DNA from: Enhydrobacter aerosaccus | Lineage (GTDB): Bacteria; Pseudomonadota; Alphaproteobacteria; Reyranellales; Reyranellaceae | Assembly: GCF_900167455.1 (NCBI RefSeq) | Contig: NZ_FUWJ01000001.1 | Span: 1 to 64,000 of the forward strand | DNA: 64,000 nucleotides | Direction: 5' to 3' | Shown: one piece after another, positions 3,778-15,678 of the stretch | How the letters are laid out: the number at the start of each line of letters is the position of its first letter | Position numbering within the stretch: position 1 is the stretch's first letter | Made by a program: the position numbers and the translations under genes | Notes under the pieces: generated by a model | Databases searched by the model: none | Told to the model about the DNA's origin: nothing | Seen by the model: the letters and a program-made list of their open reading frames with translations, nothing else

Positions 3778-3983
3778 GGTGGCCCCCTGACCAAGCAGTG
3801 GCGGGCTCGAAAAACCTGTCGCCGACGCAGCGATACTGAAACCAAGACCTTTACCTCGCCCCGGAAAGTGAAAATAATAGATGCAGGGGGAGGGGAGATT
3901 TTGGGGGACTCTGATTCTCTACCGTCATTGAACCGGCGCCTGGCGCCGGTCGGCCTGCGCACGTTGCAGAGGGTGTGAGGGAT

Positions 3984-6647
3984 ATGGATCCTGGCACCGA
4001 CAGCAAGGCCACTGTTTCAAACGAGACGGATTTCGTCGCCCTGCCGGCTGGCGCCAAGATCGGGCGCTACGAAGTCGTCGCTGTGCTGGGGCAGGGCGGC
4101 TTCGGCATCACCTATCGGGCGCGCGACATCCAGCTCGGCCGCGAAGTCGCGATCAAGGAATATCTCCCGACATCGCTTGCCGTGCGCAAGGATGGATCGA
4201 CGGTGCTGCCGCGTTCGACCAAGGTCGCCGAGGACTTCACCTGGGGCCGCGAGCGCTTTGTCGCCGAGGGCCGTACGATGGCGACGCTGCACGACGCGCC
4301 TGGCATCGTGAAGGTGTTCGATTTCCTCGAAATCAACGGCACCGCTTACATCGTCATGGAAATGCTCAAGGGCGATACGCTCGAAGGGCATCTCAAGAAG
4401 CACGGGCGCATGGACCCCGAGGCGATCGACCAGATCGTATGGCCACTGCTCGACGGTCTGGAGCAGGTCCACAATGCCGGCTTTCTCCATCGCGATATCA
4501 AGCCGGCCAACATCCTTCTCAACGCCAAGGGCCATCCTACGCTGATCGACTTCGGCGCCTCACGCGCCGCGATGGTTGGCCGGACCGTGGCGATGACGGC
4601 AATCTTCACGCCCGGCTATGCCGCCGCCGAGCAGTTCACCTCGGCCAAGCAGGGGCCGTGGACGGACATCTACGGTCTTGCGGCCACGCTCTATCACGCG
4701 ATTACCGGCGCGCCGCCGCCCAGCGCCTTCGACCGTATGCTGGACGATGAGTACGAACCGATCGCGCGGACCGCACCGCCGGGCTTCGCGCCCGGCCTGC
4801 TGGCCGGCATCGATGCCGGCCTCGCGGTCCGGGCCAGCGATCGGCCGCAGTCCATCGCCGGCTGGCGGGCCATCCTCTCGCTGGCGCAAGGCCAGTCGGC
4901 CGACGCGACCGCTCTCATGTCCGGTCGAGGCGCCGAAGCCGATGCGACCATCGTCGCGACGGCTGGCCGCCGTGCCGGTCCGCCAACTGCGCGGGTCGAG
5001 GCGCCTCCGGTTCAACCGGCGCCCGCCCCCTCGCCGCCGACCCAGTCGCCGCCCACTCAATCGCCGCCCGCCCAACCGTCCGGAGGGGCAGCCGCAGCGC
5101 CTGCGCCGGAATCCGGACCGTCGATCGCAGCCCCGTCGCCTCGCGGCAGTGCGCCGCGCAGTCGTGGGCTCGTCTATGGCGGCGCCGCAGCGCTCGCTCT
5201 CGCTCTCCTGGGCGGCGGCGGGTATTTCGCCCTCGCGCCCAAGACGCCGTCGCAGAACTCCCTGCAGGACCTGAAGGTCGAGGATCTGGAGCGCGTGCTG
5301 GCCGAGCGGCGCGCGGCGGACGCGGCGGCGGCCGAGAAGAAGCGCATGGAAGAGGAGGCCGCGCGCAAGGCGGCAGCCGATACGGCAGCCAAGCAGGCGG
5401 CCGATGCCGAACTCGAGAAGGCGCGGCAGGATCGCGAACGGGCCGAGGCCCAACTGGCGCAGATGAAGGCCGAGATGGACGTGCGGCGCCGGGCGGAAGC
5501 CGGCCAACGCCAACAGAGTGAGGCGGCGGCGCGCGTGGCGGCCGAGGAAGAGGCGGCCCGCAAGGCGGAGGCCGAAATGGCGGCGCTACGCCAGGCGGAG
5601 GAAGACGCCAAGAAGAAGGCGGCCGCCGAGGCCGAAAGCAAGCGGCAGGCCGACGAGGCGCTGGCCAAGGCTCAGGCGGCACGCGCCGCCGCCGATGCCG
5701 ACGCGAAAGCCAAGGCCGATGCCGAAGCGAAGCGGAAAGCGGACGCCGACGCCAAGCAGGTGGCCGAAGCGCAGGCGCGCGATCAGGCGGCGGCGGCCAA
5801 GGCGCAGGCCGATGCTGACGCAAAGGCCAAGGCGGACGCCGAAGCGAAGGCCAAGGCCGATGCCGAGGCCGACAAGAAAGCAGCCGAAGCCGCGGAGACC
5901 GCGTTGCGCCTGACGCCACTCGATCGCCAGCATGTCCAGGTCGCGTTGACGGCGCTCGGCTTCGACACGCGTGGCAGCGACGGCGCCTTTGGCCCGCGCT
6001 CGCGGGAGGCGATTGCCGCCTATCAGAAGTCGCGCAACGAGCCGGCGACGAGCTTCCTCACGGCCGCCCAGAACCAGGCATTGCTGCGCGACGCCTCGCC
6101 AGCGGTCGCCAAGTTCGATGCCGATCAGAGGAAGATCGAGGACGACAAGAAGAAGGCCGAGGAGGAGGCCAAGCGCAAGGCGGACGAGGACGCCAAGGCC
6201 AAGGCCGCGGCCGCCGTGGCGCCAGCGCCGGCTCCGCCGCCCCCAGCGGCCGCGCCGTCCCCCGCGGCGCCGCAAGCCGTGCCGCCACCCGCTGCATCAC
6301 AATCCGCGCCATCGGCGGCGGGCGCCATCAGTCGGTGGTTCGGCACCGCGCACTGCGAGCGATGGGGCGGCACCCTCGGCCTCAACGTTGTCATGGCCGG
6401 CGGCAAAGGGACGGCAAGCGCCAGCGGGCGAAACGATTCGAGCGCCACCATCACGATCAGTGGCAACAGCTATTCAGGCTCGATCGTCAGCTACAACAAG
6501 AACCACAGCAAGGAACTCACCGGCAGGTTCTCGGGGACGATCTCCGGCAACCAGATCAGCACGCAGGTGGTCATCCGGGCGGACTTCAAGAACCAGGACG
6601 GACCGAACGAGATGATGTGTACCGTCCAGCTTGCCGGAGCAAACTAG
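3984..6647 (+). CDS. Membrane-anchored Ser/Thr protein kinase with peptidoglycan-binding domain
   Basis: The product is about 887 residues. Residues 25-290 form a Hanks-type kinase with a glycine loop GQGGFG (36-41), VAIK Lys58, HRDIKPANILL (catalytic Asp171) and DFGAS (Asp189), all intact. A Pro-rich linker leads to one membrane helix at about 395-415 (YGGAAALALALLGGGGYFAL). Next comes a roughly 190-residue Ala/Lys/Glu coiled coil. A PG_binding_1-type domain lies at about 642-700 (VQVALTALGFDTRGSDG, FGPRSREAIAAYQ). A second charged/Pro-rich stretch leads to a beta-rich C-terminal domain from about 780. The kinase faces the cytoplasm and the rest the periplasm, suggesting cell-wall sensing. 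ATG 3984 was preferred to GTG 3975, nine bases upstream. Confidence 0.92.
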   Translation: MDPGTDSKATVSNETDFVALPAGAKIGRYEVVAVLGQGGFGITYRARDIQLGREVAIKEYLPTSLAVRKDGSTVLPRSTKVAEDFTWGRERFVAEGRTMATLHDAPGIVKVFDFLEINGTAYIVMEMLKGDTLEGHLKKHGRMDPEAIDQIVWPLLDGLEQVHNAGFLHRDIKPANILLNAKGHPTLIDFGASRAAMVGRTVAMTAIFTPGYAAAEQFTSAKQGPWTDIYGLAATLYHAITGAPPPSAFDRMLDDEYEPIARTAPPGFAPGLLAGIDAGLAVRASDRPQSIAGWRAILSLAQGQSADATALMSGRGAEADATIVATAGRRAGPPTARVEAPPVQPAPAPSPPTQSPPTQSPPAQPSGGAAAAPAPESGPSIAAPSPRGSAPRSRGLVYGGAAALALALLGGGGYFALAPKTPSQNSLQDLKVEDLERVLAERRAADAAAAEKKRMEEEAARKAAADTAAKQAADAELEKARQDRERAEAQLAQMKAEMDVRRRAEAGQRQQSEAAARVAAEEEAARKAEAEMAALRQAEEDAKKKAAAEAESKRQADEALAKAQAARAAADADAKAKADAEAKRKADADAKQVAEAQARDQAAAAKAQADADAKAKADAEAKAKADAEADKKAAEAAETALRLTPLDRQHVQVALTALGFDTRGSDGAFGPRSREAIAAYQKSRNEPATSFLTAAQNQALLRDASPAVAKFDADQRKIEDDKKKAEEEAKRKADEDAKAKAAAAVAPAPAPPPPAAAPSPAAPQAVPPPAASQSAPSAAGAISRWFGTAHCERWGGTLGLNVVMAGGKGTASASGRNDSSATITISGNSYSGSIVSYNKNHSKELTGRFSGTISGNQISTQVVIRADFKNQDGPNEMMCTVQLAGAN

Positions 6648-9015: not shown

Positions 9016-9837
9016 GTGGACAGCATCACAGACCGTGGATCGGTCCATCTTCCGGCGCAGCGCCTTACCGCTTCCGGCGTCGAGGCGCTGGACGAGGTCG
9101 TGGCGGAGGAGATCGCCGTGGCGCTCGTCTACAACGGCATCAGCCATGCGGTGATGATGGCGACGCCGTGCGACCTCGAGGATCTGGCGCGCGGCTTTTC
9201 GTTGACCGAAGGCATCGTCGACAAGCCGGCGCAGATCTACGACATCGAGGTCGAAGGACTCGATCTGGAGAAGGGCCGGCGCGGGATCGAGGTTCGGATC
9301 GAGATCGCGAGCGAGCGGCTGACGGCACTGCGGGAGCGACGGCGCACTCTCACGGGACGGACCGGCTGCGGTCTGTGCGGCGTGGACAGCCTCGACGCCG
9401 CCCTGCGACCCGTGCCGTCGATCCGGGCAGCCGGCCAACTCTCGCGCGACGCCATTGCCCGCGCAATGGCGGCTCTGCCCGCGGCGCAAAGGCTCAATCG
9501 CGAAAACGGTGCCAGCCATGCGGCGGGCTGGGCGTCGACGGACGGGACCCTGATCGCTGTGCGGGAAGATGTCGGGCGTCACAACGCGCTCGACAAGTTG
9601 GCGGGCGCTTTGATGCGGACAGCGCCGACGGACGACGGGTTCGTCGTCGTGACCAGCCGCTGCTCCTACGAGATGGTGCAGAAGGCGGCCGCCATTGGCG
9701 CGATCGCGATCGCCGCGGTTTCGGCGCCGACCTCGCTCGCCATCGCGACGGCGGAGCAGGCGGGGCTGGCGCTGGTCGCCTTCGTCCGCGAGGGCCGCCT
9801 TACCGTCTATGCGCATTCGGAGCGGATCATCGCGTGA
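9016..9837 (+). CDS. fdhD: Formate dehydrogenase accessory sulfurtransferase FdhD
   Basis: FdhD takes sulfur from IscS and passes it to the bis-MGD cofactor of formate dehydrogenase-type enzymes. The 273-residue protein carries the two-cysteine motif GCGLCG (Cys118 and Cys121). Other family segments are ALVYNGISHAVMMATPCDLE, DLARGFSLTEGI, VREDVGRHNALDKLAGAL and VVVTSRCSYEMVQKAA. It starts with GTG at 9016. The mobB start overlaps its stop (GTGA), so the two are translationally coupled. No formate dehydrogenase is adjacent; the nearest bis-MGD enzyme in the window begins at 39603, and its Cys140 aligns with the Mo-ligand position, making it a possible client. Confidence 0.95.
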   Translation: MDSITDRGSVHLPAQRLTASGVEALDEVVAEEIAVALVYNGISHAVMMATPCDLEDLARGFSLTEGIVDKPAQIYDIEVEGLDLEKGRRGIEVRIEIASERLTALRERRRTLTGRTGCGLCGVDSLDAALRPVPSIRAAGQLSRDAIARAMAALPAAQRLNRENGASHAAGWASTDGTLIAVREDVGRHNALDKLAGALMRTAPTDDGFVVVTSRCSYEMVQKAAAIGAIAIAAVSAPTSLAIATAEQAGLALVAFVREGRLTVYAHSERIIA

Positions 9838-10340
9838 TCCCGCACCGCGTCTTCGGTGTCACCGGCTGGAAGAATGCCGGCAAGACCACGCTGGTCGAGC
9901 GGCTGGTGGCCGAGTTCGTCCGGCGCGGATGGTCGGTGTCGACCGTCAAGCATGCCCATCACGATGTCGATATCGACCGGGCCGGCACTGATTCGTACCG
10001 GCATCGCGCGGCCGGGGCGACGGAGGTCGCGCTGGTTGGCGGCCTGCGCTACGCTATCATGCGCGAGCAGGAGGAGCCTACCCTTGGCGAGGTGCTGGCG
10101 CGTCTGGCGCCGGCGGACCTTGTCCTGATCGAGGGCTTCAAGCGCGACCGGCATCCCAAGATCGAGGTCCGGGCTGCCGCGGGCGGAGATCGGCCCGCTC
10201 TTGCGGCGGGCGATCCGACCATCGTGGCCATCGCCGCCGATGCGGCTCCGGCCGAGACGCATCTGCCCTGGTTCCGGCGCGATGACGTCGCGGCCATCGC
10301 CGACTTCATCGGCGCCCGGCTGGCTATCGCTGCGCCTTGA
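9834..10340 (+). CDS. mobB: Molybdopterin-guanine dinucleotide biosynthesis adapter MobB
   Basis: MobB is a small P-loop GTP-binding protein that assists MobA in making the guanine dinucleotide form of the molybdenum cofactor. The 168-residue product has the Walker A motif GWKNAGKTTL near residue 10 and VSTVKHAHHDVDIDRAGTDS followed by SYRHRAAGA. The DLVLIEGFKRDRHPKIEV segment is also typical. The GTG at 9834 overlaps the fdhD stop by four bases. At its 3' end the gene overlaps the converging FecR-domain gene by 17 bases. No MobA fusion is present; mobA must be elsewhere. Confidence 0.93.
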   Translation: MIPHRVFGVTGWKNAGKTTLVERLVAEFVRRGWSVSTVKHAHHDVDIDRAGTDSYRHRAAGATEVALVGGLRYAIMREQEEPTLGEVLARLAPADLVLIEGFKRDRHPKIEVRAAAGGDRPALAAGDPTIVAIAADAAPAETHLPWFRRDDVAAIADFIGARLAIAAP

Positions 10341-13134
10341 ACGTGCCGGCGGCCGTATAGTTCGGACCGGTGACGCCGAAGCTGCCGGCCTGACCCGCCG
10401 CCGGAACCGCGCCGTTGTTGAAGAAGGCGCCATTCAGCGTTCCGACGCGGCCGGTGCTGTTCGTGGCCGCGAAGCCGCCGGTGAATTGCGGCGTGTTGCC
10501 GACCATTGCCGTGCCACCACGATAGCTGGTGCCATCGAAGTTGCTGATGCTGACGGCGCCTGTCCGGGTCGCGAAGTTCCACTGGTTGGTATAGCCGCCG
10601 ACGGCGACGTACGAGGCGCCGCCATTGCGCACATTGCCGACCATATCGCCGACATACGTCGCGGTGCCGGTGTTGGGCATCTGCACCGCGGAGGTAAGGG
10701 TGCCGGCGACATAGGTGGCGAGGTTGATGCGATCGGTGACATTGGAGCCATGCGCGCCGTAGCGGATGTCGCCGCCCCAGAACCCCCAGCTCAGGAAGGC
10801 GCAGGTGCAGGGCGTGACCTCGGCGGCATTGTAGAGCCCGTTCAGCGCCGTTGGATTGGTGTTGGCGCTCACCAGCGCCGTCGACGCGGTCGGCGAGATG
10901 CCGCCGCCCCGCCGAACGGTCACGTTACCGCCGGTCATGGCATAGGTGTTGTCGTCGATGAAGGCGCTCTGGCCGCCCGTGTCGGGGTTGCCCAGCCGGA
11001 TGGTGGCCCGGTCGCTGTTGCCAGCACCCAGAGCCACGCGACGGATGGTGGCGGTGGCCTGATTGGTCGAGGCGTCGGTCGTGAGCGTGAGGTTCGGCCG
11101 CGAGCTGCCAGTGCCGAAGGCCTTGGTATTGAAGATCGAGCCGTCGCCGGTGTCGCGGCGCTGGTCGATCAGCCCGGCGATGAAGCCGGTGAGAGTCCGG
11201 GTCGTCCGCGACTGGCCGACGGACTCGGGCGTCGAGGTCCGGCCCGCCGCGTTGACGCCGAAATAGTCATTGGCGGTCGAATTCTGAAGCCCGACATCGG
11301 CGGAGGCCTGTGAGGTGCGGGTGGTGGAGATCGAGTTCACCACGCCGCCGCGTGTCGTGTAGGTCGTGGCGAGCTTGTCGGGCGTCATCACCATGTAGTC
11401 GGCGTTGTCACCGTAGATCGCGTTGCTCGCGCCCGTGGATGGCGTGGAGATCGCCGAGACCAGCAGATTGGGACCGCTGTGGCTGTCGAGCCGATAGGTG
11501 CCGACATAGTTGCCGCCGAAGCCGACCGAGACCGTGCTGAGGTCGGGGAAGTAATAGCCGACCATCACGCCCATGTAGGATTTCTGGGCCGCGCCCGTGC
11601 CGGAGATGGCGATGGACGCCTGCATCGCCGCCGACTTCTGATTACCGGCCGGCTGATTGAGCGCGAGCGTCTGGGGCGCGAAGACGGCCAGCAGCTTGGA
11701 GACATCCTTCACCGCCTGCAGGTTCGGATCGTCGCCTACCGTGCCATTTGCAAACGGCAGACGGGTGCTGCCGGCGAGATTCGTCACGTCATAGGCGACG
11801 ATGCCGGAGGTCGGGAGATGCGAGCGCAGCGTGGTCGGCTCGCCGCCGAAGAAGCCCACTTTCTGATTGGCGCCATTGTTGAAAACGTAGGCGAAGAACT
11901 TTCCATCCGGCGAGACATAGCCCGTGCCCACGAGCACACCGAGTTGCTGATCAACGATGGGCGCGATCGGAAATGGACTTCCGGTCGGATGCCAGGGAAC
12001 GACAATCGAATGGCCGTCGCCCGTCGTGATCTCCACGCGGTTGCGGTCCGTGACGACACCCGTCGGCTGTAGAGGCTTATTGGCGGATGCCACGGGCGTC
12101 ACCACCAGTCCGTTTTCGCTGTAGTTGAAGTTGGTGTAGGGCGTGGCGCCGATGAAGCGGCCCAGGGTGACGATGACCTGGGTGTTGGCCGGCGGGTCCG
12201 GCTGCGGATTGTTGTTGGGTTGCGAGTTCCTGTCCTGCAGCGCCTGCTGCACCTGTTGTTGCGGACTGTTGGAAGTCGCGGTCGAGATGGCCGTCGACAG
12301 GGCATTGTTCAATTGCTGATTGAAGGCGACCGCCGTCTGATTGAGCAGGATCGGATTCTGCGTCGGCGGCTGCCCGTTGTTCTGCTGCGAGAAGTTCTGC
12401 GCGCCCTGTTCGGCGGTCTTGATGCTGTTCTGGCCGGCTCCGGAACCGCTGCCGGCCGGAATGTTGTTGGTGCCCTGCGTGTTGCTGCCGCTCTTGCCTT
12501 CGAGCTGGCCGAGCAGACCCGCCAGGGCGCCCTGGGCAATCAAGGAAGGTTGGCCCGGCTGAGAGCCGAAGTTCGTGACGATCTGCGAGCCGGGTCGCGT
12601 CGCTGTCTGTGTCTGCCCCTGCCCGGTGACTGTCATCTTGTCGCCGAAGACGAAGGTCGAGCTGGTGGCCGTCTGTTCGACGGCAAAGACCGTGATGCCG
12701 CCGCGGATGCCGATGGTGCTCGACGGCGTCGTGATGGTGATCGGCTGTGTCTTGCTGATCTTGCCGCCGACGAGGCGGAACACGCCCTTGCTGGCATTGA
12801 CGGCAAGCTCACCGGTCTTGGTCGCCGGGTCGAACACGAACTTGTCGATGATGACGCGGGCATTGGGCCCCACGGTCAGGGACGTGCCATCGAGGAAGAC
12901 GAGATGGGCACGGTCGTTGCTGCCCGTCGTGATGGCTTCGTTGGCCTGCACGTCGATGCCGATACGCAGGACGCGTTCGGGCTGGGTCGGCGGCTTGCCG
13001 AGCGGGTCGCCGTCGGTGGCCGAGGTGACGCCGACGCGCGCCAGGGCAGCGGGAGCGGCCAACAGAGAGAGGGCGGCCGTGCTCAGCAGGGCCGCACGCA
13101 GAAGGGAAACGCCACACGGAACAGGACGGGCCAT
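10324..13134 (-). CDS. FecR-domain surface/secreted protein with TbpB-like C-terminal barrel
   Basis: This 936-residue protein begins with a signal peptide (ALLSTAALSLLAAPAALA) that has no lipobox. A FecR domain follows at about 55-155 (ITTGSNDRAHLVFLDGTSLT, then KGVFRLVGGKI and STIGIRGGITVF). Next is a Gln/Asn/Pro-rich linker (about 205-320) and a large beta-rich region. The C-terminal 150 residues contain a CTC motif, GFWGGDI and the repeat style of transferrin-binding-protein barrels (LNGAFFNNG, FGVTGPNYTAAGTFKAQR). Its upstream neighbour, 18 bases away, is a Slam-like outer-membrane protein. Slam (DUF560) proteins export cargo with such barrels, so this is the likely cargo. Lack of a lipobox suggests a released or non-lipid-anchored product. 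Confidence 0.72.
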   Translation of the reverse strand: MARPVPCGVSLLRAALLSTAALSLLAAPAALARVGVTSATDGDPLGKPPTQPERVLRIGIDVQANEAITTGSNDRAHLVFLDGTSLTVGPNARVIIDKFVFDPATKTGELAVNASKGVFRLVGGKISKTQPITITTPSSTIGIRGGITVFAVEQTATSSTFVFGDKMTVTGQGQTQTATRPGSQIVTNFGSQPGQPSLIAQGALAGLLGQLEGKSGSNTQGTNNIPAGSGSGAGQNSIKTAEQGAQNFSQQNNGQPPTQNPILLNQTAVAFNQQLNNALSTAISTATSNSPQQQVQQALQDRNSQPNNNPQPDPPANTQVIVTLGRFIGATPYTNFNYSENGLVVTPVASANKPLQPTGVVTDRNRVEITTGDGHSIVVPWHPTGSPFPIAPIVDQQLGVLVGTGYVSPDGKFFAYVFNNGANQKVGFFGGEPTTLRSHLPTSGIVAYDVTNLAGSTRLPFANGTVGDDPNLQAVKDVSKLLAVFAPQTLALNQPAGNQKSAAMQASIAISGTGAAQKSYMGVMVGYYFPDLSTVSVGFGGNYVGTYRLDSHSGPNLLVSAISTPSTGASNAIYGDNADYMVMTPDKLATTYTTRGGVVNSISTTRTSQASADVGLQNSTANDYFGVNAAGRTSTPESVGQSRTTRTLTGFIAGLIDQRRDTGDGSIFNTKAFGTGSSRPNLTLTTDASTNQATATIRRVALGAGNSDRATIRLGNPDTGGQSAFIDDNTYAMTGGNVTVRRGGGISPTASTALVSANTNPTALNGLYNAAEVTPCTCAFLSWGFWGGDIRYGAHGSNVTDRINLATYVAGTLTSAVQMPNTGTATYVGDMVGNVRNGGASYVAVGGYTNQWNFATRTGAVSISNFDGTSYRGGTAMVGNTPQFTGGFAATNSTGRVGTLNGAFFNNGAVPAAGQAGSFGVTGPNYTAAGTFKAQR

Positions 13135-13152
13135 GTCAGTCTCCTCACGACG

Positions 13153-14529
13153 CTAGAAGCGTCTGCTTATGCCAAACATGAAACTGTTGTTCTCGAACGC
13201 GTAGTTGGGCAGCGTGGCGGCGCGCACGAAGCGGCCGCCGGAAACGGAGAATGTGGTGAGATCGTCGAACGGCACGCTCAGGACGAGATTGAGGATGGTG
13301 TCGCTCTGATAGCGCATGATGGTCGGAGACACGGTCGGATCGGGCGCGTCGTAGGTCCACCACTGCTCGTTGACGCTGAGATTGATGCTCCACGGCAAGC
13401 CGGTCCTGAGCAACGGATCGGGGAAGCGGAATGCCATGCCGCCGCCGACGCCCAGCAGCATGTAGTTCTGTGAGGCGGTCTGGACCGTCTCGTAGCGCTG
13501 CCCGCTGCCGTTGGCGTAGAGCGTTATGATGTTGGTGAGCTGGTACTGGAAACTCGTATTGAGCGTGAACAGCGTGCCCGTGAGCAGGTTGTTGGTCGGC
13601 AGGTACCAGGTGTTTGGATAGTCCTGCTTGCGCCAGGTGAAGGTCGTGACGTTGCGCAGGTCGTCGGCGAGCAGCGCGTTGCCCTCGAGGCCGGCGCCGT
13701 AGCTCGCGTAATAGGGCGTGTCGTTGACCCAGATGGCGCCGACGGCCGCGAAGGGCTTCAAGGTGACGTCCTGGAACGTGCCGCTGAAGATCTGGAATCG
13801 CGGGCCGCTGGTGAGATCGAGCAGCGACACGTTCGCCGTGCTCAGCGTGAACTGGCGATTGGCGTAGGCGGTGAACAGCGTCTCGAGCGCCGATCGATCC
13901 TGACGGCCGAAGTCGTAGGTGTGACGCAGCTGCAGCGAGCCGACGACGCCCCAGTCCGACGCCCCCACCGCCTGCTGGTTGAGGTTGGCCGCCTGGCCGA
14001 ACAGCATCACCGATGACGTGGCCGGACCAAGATTGGCATTGGACTGATAGCGCCAGCCGAAGAAGGCCTCGCCGGAGAATTGCGATGGACGTTCCTGGTT
14101 CACGACCTGGGTCATGAATTCTTCGGCGCGCTTGCGCACGTCGGGCGGCAGGTTCGGAGACTTGAGCGCGCCTTCGAGATAGGTACGCGCCACTTCGAAC
14201 GAGCCCAGGCGATAATAGAGAACGCCAAGTTCGAGTCGTACGCGCGGCAGATCGGGACTGATCAGCAGCATGCGCTCGAGGGCGGAGACCGCGCCTTCGA
14301 GATCGCCGGTCTGACTCGCGATGGTGGCGAAGCGAAACAGCACGTCGAGATTCGCCGGCTGCTTCATCATCTCTTCGAAGGCAGCGTCGTACTCGCGCTT
14401 CGCATCAATTGGCGCGGTGGGTGTCGGTGTATTGGTTTGTGCGTTGGCGAACCCTGCCAGCACGAACCAGGTGATTGAAGCTCCGATTGTTACGCAAAGA
14501 CTCAGGATGGAGCAGCTTGACTGTCGCAA
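13153..14529 (-). CDS. TPR plus outer-membrane beta-barrel protein, Slam/DUF560-like
   Basis: With a TTG start at 14529 the product is 458 residues with a good signal peptide (VTIGASITWFVLAGFANA). Residues about 45-140 form TPR helices (REYDAAFEEMMKQPANLDVL, GDLEGAVSALERMLL, LGVLYYRLGSFEVARTYLEG). The remaining 300 residues are amphipathic beta strands ending in GISRRF, with the terminal Phe typical of outer-membrane barrels. TPR plus barrel is the layout of Slam (type XI secretion) translocons, which move TbpB-like proteins to the surface. The FecR/TbpB-like cargo candidate follows at once. A GTG at 14580 is an alternative start; no ATG fits. Other TPR-barrel porins remain possible. Confidence 0.68.
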   Translation of the reverse strand: MRQSSCSILSLCVTIGASITWFVLAGFANAQTNTPTPTAPIDAKREYDAAFEEMMKQPANLDVLFRFATIASQTGDLEGAVSALERMLLISPDLPRVRLELGVLYYRLGSFEVARTYLEGALKSPNLPPDVRKRAEEFMTQVVNQERPSQFSGEAFFGWRYQSNANLGPATSSVMLFGQAANLNQQAVGASDWGVVGSLQLRHTYDFGRQDRSALETLFTAYANRQFTLSTANVSLLDLTSGPRFQIFSGTFQDVTLKPFAAVGAIWVNDTPYYASYGAGLEGNALLADDLRNVTTFTWRKQDYPNTWYLPTNNLLTGTLFTLNTSFQYQLTNIITLYANGSGQRYETVQTASQNYMLLGVGGGMAFRFPDPLLRTGLPWSINLSVNEQWWTYDAPDPTVSPTIMRYQSDTILNLVLSVPFDDLTTFSVSGGRFVRAATLPNYAFENNSFMFGISRRF

Positions 14530-14588: not shown

Positions 14589-15584
14589 CTAAATCAACCA
14601 ACTCCGCAAAACATATACCCAAGACATTGGAAAGCTTGTGCGAGCTGCACGCATGCGAAGCAGCATTCTCTGATACTGCCGATCGCCGAGCGCGGTGATG
14701 AAACGCTCGCTGTCGCGGATCATCGCGGCGAGCATTCGATCCAACATGCGCGAATGGGTATCGCCCCAATTACGCGCCGAGAGATGGAGTCGTCCTCCAA
14801 GTATTGGATTGTTCGCTGCAAAATTACGTCCATGGAGACGGTACGCGTACAGCGGTTCGTCTATCAGCAGCGAACCTGCAACCATCTGCGCCATGACGAC
14901 GATGTAGTAGTCCATATGGAGGCGAAACGTCTCGTCGTCGTCCGGGAAGACGAGATCGATCAGCGAGCGCCGGAACATCATCGACGAGGTGCTGACCCAG
15001 ACCCAGTGAACCAGCCGCTTCGTATAGAGACAATAAGGAGTCTGCGTCTGCCAATGAGCGGACCGCGATGCGTGATCCAATTTGGGTACCCGCGCCGGAT
15101 CGATGGGGGCGAAAGCGCGTCCGCGATCGGCGACCGCGCGGTCCTTGCCGAACCAGTAGACCGCGCCGGCAACCACGACATCGTTGCCGTCGATCAGGCG
15201 CGCATTGCAGGCGGTGAAGCCCACGGCATAGGTCTCGTTGAGATGTGCCGCGAGGTGGCGTTCGAGGAAGTCCTCGTTCCACAGATCGTCCGAGTCGAGG
15301 AAGCAGACGAACGGCGCGTTGGTGTGCGCAAGACCCGCGCGTGTCGCGCCGGTCTGTCCGACATTCTTCTGCAAACGGACAAGCCGGAAGCGGGAGTCGG
15401 CCAGTTCCGCCAACGTCTGCTCGATGATGGCCGCCGAATTGTCGGTCGAAGCGTCGTCGACGATCACGCATTCGAAATCGGTCAGCGTCTGCCGCGCCAC
15501 CGAGCGGATCGCAGCACCGATATAGTCCGGGCAGTTGTAGCAGGTGACGACGACGGAAATTCGGGGAAGCTTGAGATCGGTCAT
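14589..15584 (-). CDS. Family 2 glycosyltransferase (GT-A fold)
   Basis: The 331-residue product starts MTDLKLPRISVVVTCYNCPD. It has GT2 hallmarks: the nucleotide-binding ISVVVTCYN strand, CVIVDDASTDNSAAII, KNVGQTGATRAGL and the metal-binding FVCFLDSDDLW (DxD-type). A C-terminal region with MMFRRSLIDLVFPDDDETFR is in the position of acceptor-binding residues. No membrane helix is evident, so it is cytoplasmic or peripheral. It would transfer a sugar from an NDP-sugar to an unknown acceptor. It lies 59 bases upstream of the Slam-like gene in the same direction and may be co-transcribed. Confidence 0.88.
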   Translation of the reverse strand: MTDLKLPRISVVVTCYNCPDYIGAAIRSVARQTLTDFECVIVDDASTDNSAAIIEQTLAELADSRFRLVRLQKNVGQTGATRAGLAHTNAPFVCFLDSDDLWNEDFLERHLAAHLNETYAVGFTACNARLIDGNDVVVAGAVYWFGKDRAVADRGRAFAPIDPARVPKLDHASRSAHWQTQTPYCLYTKRLVHWVWVSTSSMMFRRSLIDLVFPDDDETFRLHMDYYIVVMAQMVAGSLLIDEPLYAYRLHGRNFAANNPILGGRLHLSARNWGDTHSRMLDRMLAAMIRDSERFITALGDRQYQRMLLRMRAARTSFPMSWVYVLRSWLI

Positions 15585-15678
15585 GGCTGAGAGCGCAATG
15601 CTCCAATGTCGCTCGTTGTCGTGATGAAGGCCGCTGGAGTGACGCTCTCCCGGCGACCGGAGACTCTCCGCATCGTGT

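Follow-up and report, generated by a model that had tools for sequence, protein, structure and literature searches.

The window analysed here comprises 64,000 nucleotides of Enhydrobacter aerosaccus (positions 1 to 64,000 of contig NZ_FUWJ01000001.1). Two adjacent genes on the minus strand were examined: 13153–14529, encoding a predicted Slam/DUF560-type outer-membrane protein with TPR repeats and a 14-strand barrel, and 10324–13134, encoding a predicted cargo protein of 936 amino acids. The second gene follows the first after a gap of 18 bases, and the gene order and coordinates given in the initial annotation are confirmed. The glycosyltransferase gene that it had placed just upstream in the same direction (14592–15599, minus strand) encodes a GT2 enzyme (PF00535, E 1.4e-31). 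Just past the end of the cargo gene, and convergent with it, lie two genes named by eye as fdhD and mobB (9016–10340, plus strand). One or both of these genes are present in the fetched stretches of 37 distinct loci, including this one. Co-occurrence of T11SS with formate dehydrogenase is reported, and molybdopterin discussed, in PMC12282271; the recurrence of fdhD and mobB beside the pair may be plain synteny. About 4 kb from the pair, an 890-residue protein (3975–6647, plus strand) shows, by eye, a Ser/Thr protein kinase-like start and a peptidoglycan-binding-like stretch.

The 13153–14529 gene starts with TTG at 14529, in a reading frame that is open to 14769, and its product ends in ...SRRF. 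This protein matches SlipAM (PF04575) with 24.4 bits, above the Pfam cut-off of 22, and is the sole SlipAM match of its genome at E ≤ 0.001. TPR repeats were detected by Pfam (TPR_19, E 1.5e-9), and the Slam-specific TPR model PF24575 gave E 0.027. In the AlphaFold model (pLDDT 90.8, pTM 0.77), six TPR helices form a presumably periplasmic domain at residues 41–146 (14092–14409, minus strand), and 14 long strands form a beta barrel at residues 149–457 (13159–14085, minus strand). Among solved barrels, the model comes nearest to two 14-strand porins, CymA (Z 21.7, 277 residues, 3.4 Å) and OmpG (Z 20.4). The top three Foldseek matches, two to BcsC and one to PelBC, likewise combine TPR with a barrel, and no solved Slam structure is among the fold matches listed. 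The hhalign alignment of 14 close relatives with 12 strong SlipAM proteins (120–354 bits) ran the whole length, the TPR domain as well as the barrel, at probability 99.8 and E 4.9e-28 over 375 columns; the barrels alone (19 rows) aligned with strong SlipAM at E 4e-20. SlipAM at E 0.01 was passed by eight of the 35 aligned family members, the 13153–14529 protein included. Mean identity within the family is 46% in the TPR domain versus 31% in the barrel. Given the SlipAM match, the end-to-end profile homology and the predicted TPR plus 14-strand barrel, sequence and predicted architecture place this protein in the Slam/T11SS (type XI) family as a divergent member. The initial annotation had described a TPR-plus-barrel outer-membrane protein ending in Phe, and the DUF560 match and Slam-like predicted barrel bear this out.

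The leader of the cargo, at about residues 1–33 (13036–13134, minus strand), ends in APAALA|RVGVTS, with the cleavage site judged by eye. Both reading of the sequence and a survey of the pattern in the family agree with the ordinary signal peptide without lipobox that was described earlier, and this distinguishes the cargo from lipidated Slam surface lipoproteins. The FecR domain (PF04773, 42.6 bits, E 1.2e-9) occupies residues 67–159 (12658–12936, minus strand), an N-terminal position, as had been claimed for the 936-residue protein. By eye, a low-complexity linker rich in Asn, Gln, Ser, Thr and Pro covers about residues 190–316 (12187–12567, minus strand). It leads to a middle "passenger" domain at residues 317–640 (11215–12186, minus strand), delimited by the family alignment. 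In a profile search, this domain of about 320 residues has no credible relative among PDB sequences; the best match, to carbonic anhydrase at E 0.12, was taken as chance. Among other long cargos, Pfam gave no passenger domain in nine that were scanned and cadherin in one (L276).

The C-terminal part of the cargo, residues 643–936 (10327–11208, minus strand), is predicted as a TbpB-type lobe composed of a handle and an 8-strand barrel (AlphaFold pLDDT 90.2, pTM 0.90). In VIA comparisons, the lobe model matches the TbpB C-lobe with Z 14.8 (197 residues, 4.2 Å), NHBA with Z 13.3 (145 residues, 2.6 Å) and HpuA with 12.5. The 50 matches listed by Foldseek and the 50 listed by VIA are all TbpB, LbpB, fHbp, NHBA, HpuA or hemophilin-type proteins, one of them titled only "Surface Lipoprotein". 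Since the fold matches listed are all TbpB-type proteins, with the TbpB C-lobe at Z 14.8, the predicted structure is read as handle plus barrel, resembling one TbpB lobe. The lobe of this cargo has no Pfam TbpB_B_D or FHBP_C match over the cut-off (FHBP_C E 0.082, 14.2 versus 28.1 bits). Among 25 family lobes searched singly at E ≤ 5, FHBP_C was found in 11 (best E 4.2e-4) and TbpB_B_D in 7 (best E 3.4e-5). When these 25 lobes were combined into a profile and compared with PDB sequences, all 19 matches at E ≤ 10 were NHBA, fHbp or TbpB (best E 0.0069). The TbpB-like C-terminal barrel of the initial annotation is thus retained as a predicted fold, with one correction: the barrel placed at residues 780–936 is part of a larger lobe that begins at about residue 643.

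To survey gene linkage, 140 stretches around homologues were retrieved, of which 60 (L034–L093) were chosen for long contigs and spread of identity and 80 (L094–L173) were the best of 149. One of them, L074, was chosen with its FecR neighbour known. Because the loci were chosen by hand or from the best matches, the linkage counts favour close relatives. After removal of eight TPR-only and three partial genes, 129 barrels remained; merging identical exporters left 103, and setting aside three loci at contig edges left 100. With a FecR HMM built from this family, linker included, FecR was found directly downstream of the TPR-barrel gene in 89 of these 100 distinct loci with room for it. The 89 FecR partners include 54 with a lobe, 26 with FecR only, three in which the following frame encodes the lobe and six that are cut short. 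No FecR lies directly downstream in the other 11 loci, one of which (L079) has FecR upstream. Split FecR/lobe pairs in L051 and L052 were considered as natural fissions and rejected: by eye, the downstream frame lacks a signal peptide and reads as a continuation of one protein, and they were not used as evidence because a frameshift or assembly error is equally likely. As the pairing of TPR-barrel and FecR-lobe genes recurs in dozens of distinct loci, it is not due to chance, and exporter and cargo genes do co-occur across alphaproteobacteria. Carriers of the pair include Reyranella soli and R. aquatilis (L113, L117).

The linkage extends to relatives that have TPR and no barrel. All eight TPR-only genes that were fetched directly precede a FecR gene; seven of these partners have no lobe and the eighth is cut. 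The genome studied here has two FecR matches at E ≤ 0.001, and both lie behind a TPR gene of this family. The second pair (G000:C17:1503507-1505629; L074:5008-7130) consists of a short TPR-only protein, with 51–55% identity to the TPR domain of the exporter, and an immediately following FecR protein of 537 residues that has no lobe. In 65 congeneric genomes, 43 FecR rows and 39 TPR rows among the matches listed were compared, chosen by contig: 36 of the 43 FecR matches at 41–51 bits have this TPR at most 2.6 kb upstream, in the same orientation. Among the matches listed for the genus, FecRs linked to TPR score 41–51 bits, as opposed to 62–91 bits for other FecRs, and inspection by eye placed no FecR row of at least 62 bits near a listed TPR row. 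Since 89 of 100 barrels and eight of eight TPR-only genes precede FecR, and 26 of the 89 partners have no lobe, the constant link is that of TPR with FecR, and the TbpB lobe is a common but optional partner. That FecR is the constant partner, rather than the TbpB barrel, goes beyond the initial annotation. In a mirror-tree comparison of 58 pairs, the partial correlation with the barrel is −0.04 for the lobe and 0.72 for FecR. Shared ancestry and gaps in the lobes confound these values, which serve as a hint only. The divergence of the lobe does not track that of the barrel, which argues against a specific barrel–lobe fit.

In most of these proteins, FecR appears to stand where a lipid anchor would be expected. 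Among 86 distinct lobe proteins, 76 have FecR, six have no FecR, three are cut at an edge and one is a fragment. A loose lipobox pattern was found in eight of the 76 FecR-bearing proteins (68 have none) versus all six FecR-free ones (p 9e-6), the latter being from four genomes and weakly scored (28–41 bits). By eye, most of the eight patterns are not at the leader's end, and those in L134 and L164 could be true lipoboxes. The 16 fetched lobe genes without an exporter in the stretch include 11 with FecR, three cut by contig ends and two (L284 and L285) with a lipobox and no FecR. Genome G594 encodes six proteins with FecR and lobe, 694 to 1445 residues long, versus one exporter match; of the four scanned, one has cadherin repeats (PF00028, E 1.3e-40) and three have FecR only. 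In a SlipAM control with the best locus in each of 30 genomes of the phylum, the family-made HMM found FecR within about 1.5 kb at four of 30 loci, and at none of the 14 listed first (L174–L187). Outside the class, a SlipAM gene cluster (L264) has a FecR protein with a below-cut-off TbpB_B_D match (E 3.4e-4). In another stretch, a single open frame (L286:3422-8320) combines FecR with two TbpB-type lobes in 1632 residues.

To investigate the relationships among the exporters, a quick maximum-likelihood tree of 106 sequences was constructed. Reyranella and its family hold two clades of paralogous exporters, clade I with 52 rows (SH-aLRT 99) and clade II with 19 rows (SH-aLRT 100). The partners in clade I comprise 40 with a lobe, three split, eight cut or at an edge and one with FecR only, and all 19 rows of clade II have FecR-only partners. 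Lobe-bearing pairs also sit on deeper branches, a pattern simply read as clade II having lost the lobe; long branches make the deep order of the tree uncertain. The GT2 gene lies upstream in 43 of the 52 clade-I rows, the present locus included, and is 71–88% identical where present; it was not found upstream of any clade-II row or of nine clade-I rows, two of which have less than 500 bases upstream. It is a conserved neighbour within this paralogue clade, and its role in the system is unproven. Downstream of one clade-II FecR-only pair lies a gamma-glutamyltranspeptidase gene (PF01019, L055:6719-8524), and frames of 600–601 amino acids downstream of such pairs in L056, L057, L058, L060 and L092 resemble it by length alone. 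At the genome level, 289 genomes of the class were searched, with the exporter profile found in 74 and the lobe profile in 27. The exporter profile is present in 26 of the 27 lobe genomes versus 48 of the 262 without lobe (p 2e-16), and the 27th has a SlipAM match.

The pair resembles known Slam/T11SS systems (DUF560/SlipAM, PF04575) in its TPR domain, predicted 14-strand barrel, terminal Phe, adjoining TbpB-lobe cargo and whole-length profile homology. It differs in that the exporter belongs to an outlying lineage (24.4 bits) and the partner is a FecR protein. DUF560 barrels export proteins, with a C-terminal 8-strand barrel as the likely targeting element (PMC8406197; PMC12282271). According to a 2021 survey, characterised DUF560 proteins were confined to cluster 1, and the other nine of the ten clusters, mostly from water and soil organisms, had none (PMC8406197); DUF1194 is a frequent partner in marine cluster 3 (PMC12282271). 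Slam homologues were found beside lipobox genes in 185 of 353 cases (PMC5449769), and a separate FecR regulator is described beside a TbpB/Slam cluster (PMC11233812). Close parallels to the present cargo are the non-lipidated T11SS cargos with TbpBBDsol, such as HrpC and hemophilin, which also have a leader of the signal peptidase I type, one C-terminal handle-barrel lobe and a DUF560 neighbour (PMC8406197). FecR, which the present cargo has, is absent from the ten cargo architectures listed in PMC12282271, in keeping with the earlier remark that FecR plus a TbpB barrel is not among the classical Slam clients. The word FecR does not occur in the main text of PMC8406197 or of PMC12282271. A literature search, with most subscription papers and all bioRxiv preprints outside its scope, found, among the entries examined, no paper on FecR paired with DUF560, Slam, T11SS or TXISS. 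TbpB, LbpB, fHbp, NHBA and HpuA share the lobe fold with the present cargo and are lipidated surface proteins and Slam clients, NHBA being dependent on Slam, with known ligands in animal hosts; they carry a lipid anchor where the cargo here has FecR. Although it has the same FecR domain (PF04773) as the FecR iron-citrate anti-sigma regulator, the cargo is a secreted-type protein with a signal peptide.

Taken together, the DUF560 match, the predicted 14-strand barrel with TPR, the TbpB-type lobe and the co-occurrence support the initial proposal of a Slam-type pair with a FecR-bearing cargo, and we consider it probable that the two genes make up a Slam-like (type XI) secretion unit whose cargo belongs to a new class. 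Both proteins would reach the periplasm by Sec, and the TPR-barrel protein would insert into the outer membrane. By analogy with the family, the C-terminal TbpB-type lobe, with its 8-strand barrel, would act as the export signal and be taken outward through the 14-strand barrel. The FecR domain, at the other end of the cargo, would dock on the periplasmic TPR domain, either delivering the cargo or holding its N-terminus. For this docking itself we see slightly less than an even chance; a periplasmic contact between TPR and FecR is the simplest shared step, because TPR-only proteins also precede FecR genes. A held N-terminus could tether passenger and lobe at the surface without a lipid anchor, and the variable middle domain, which has cadherin repeats in one relative, would be the effector.

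Several observations count against secretion: the FecR-only partners, the 11 loci without FecR downstream, the absence of lobe–barrel co-divergence, CHASE2 neighbours in distant relatives, the few SlipAM passes (8/35), the present lobe's scores below Pfam cut-offs, the lack of a solved Slam among the fold matches listed and the possible lipoboxes in L134 and L164. In particular, the FecR-only partners (26/89) offer no lobe to export, so the barrel there would do something else or handle FecR itself. These partners, and the co-divergence of FecR with the barrel, would also suit a trans-envelope sensor. In such a sensor, the TPR-barrel and FecR proteins would be permanently joined at the outer membrane, any lobe present would sense a ligand outside, and FecR would relay the signal in the periplasm as with FecA, to be received in distant relatives by a CHASE2 cyclase of the inner membrane. 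CHASE2-guanylate cyclase genes adjoin TPR-barrel/FecR pairs in L079, L080 and L287, which keeps a sensing role in consideration, and in Burkholderia a LysM-FecR protein shares operons with a CHASE2 histidine kinase (PMC5192318). The lobe fold, however, is that of surface-exported proteins, and by eye no cyclase, ECF sigma factor or FecA-type receptor was recognised among the ORFs around the present pair, some of which were also scanned; the kinase-like gene at 3975–6647 lies about 4 kb away. We regard sensing as improbable. Two possible parallels were set aside: NsrA of Sinorhizobium, an outer-membrane receptor upstream of CHASE2 cyclases, was dropped on its published description, in which the barrel spans residues 600–1200, and S. 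meliloti SMc02177, a FecR-domain protein encoded near cyaD1, showed no link to a TPR-barrel in the published account.

The glycosyltransferase neighbour and the shared TPR-plus-barrel architecture of Foldseek's best rows could instead point to polysaccharide export, with the TPR-barrel as an EPS porin like BcsC, PelB or PgaA, GT2 as the synthase and FecR as an envelope adaptor. A GT41 gene also adjoins a SlipAM-FecR pair in L265. BcsC and PelB have barrels of 16 strands. For PgaA, 16 strands are reported (PMC8406197), whereas the exporter here models with 14 and best matches CymA and OmpG among solved barrels. The end-to-end SlipAM homology and the exporter rows with no GT found upstream, namely all of clade II and nine of 52 in clade I, also argue against this explanation, which we judge very improbable. 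In L265 (L265:6277-11279), the order is SlipAM gene, FecR and then the GT41 (OGT-like) glycosyltransferase. Within the secretion reading, FecR might be a mere structural stalk or spacer that does not bind TPR, as FecR is found in other envelope proteins. The eight barrel-less TPR-only genes directly before FecR genes, and the TPR found upstream of 36 of the 43 lower-scoring congeneric FecR matches listed, argue against such a passive role; we consider it unlikely, as a sub-case whose probability overlaps with that of the preferred reading.

With secretion by a Slam-like exporter as the preferred reading, a wider scheme can be offered tentatively, and we hold it to be somewhat less probable than the docking step. 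FecR would be a lipid-free module for retention and addressing, and TPR plus FecR the ancestral core. Loss of the lobe would have accompanied the emergence of a clade of paralogues in which barrel and FecR were retained and served a different purpose. Within a genome, several unlinked FecR-tagged cargos, including an adhesin-like one, could pass through one exporter, and the core would be wired to CHASE2 cyclases in distant relatives.

The pair is real and conserved, and by sequence and prediction it is a new variant of type XI secretion, in which the role of FecR is the new and testable part. The FecR-headed, TbpB-lobed cargo is a combination common to related bacteria. It gives the environmental alphaproteobacterial members of DUF560 a concrete candidate class of cargo and suggests a testable rule, that FecR replaces the lipid anchor. 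A natural experiment is provided by the two clades of exporter paralogues, which occur in the same family and differ in whether the cargo has a TbpB lobe.
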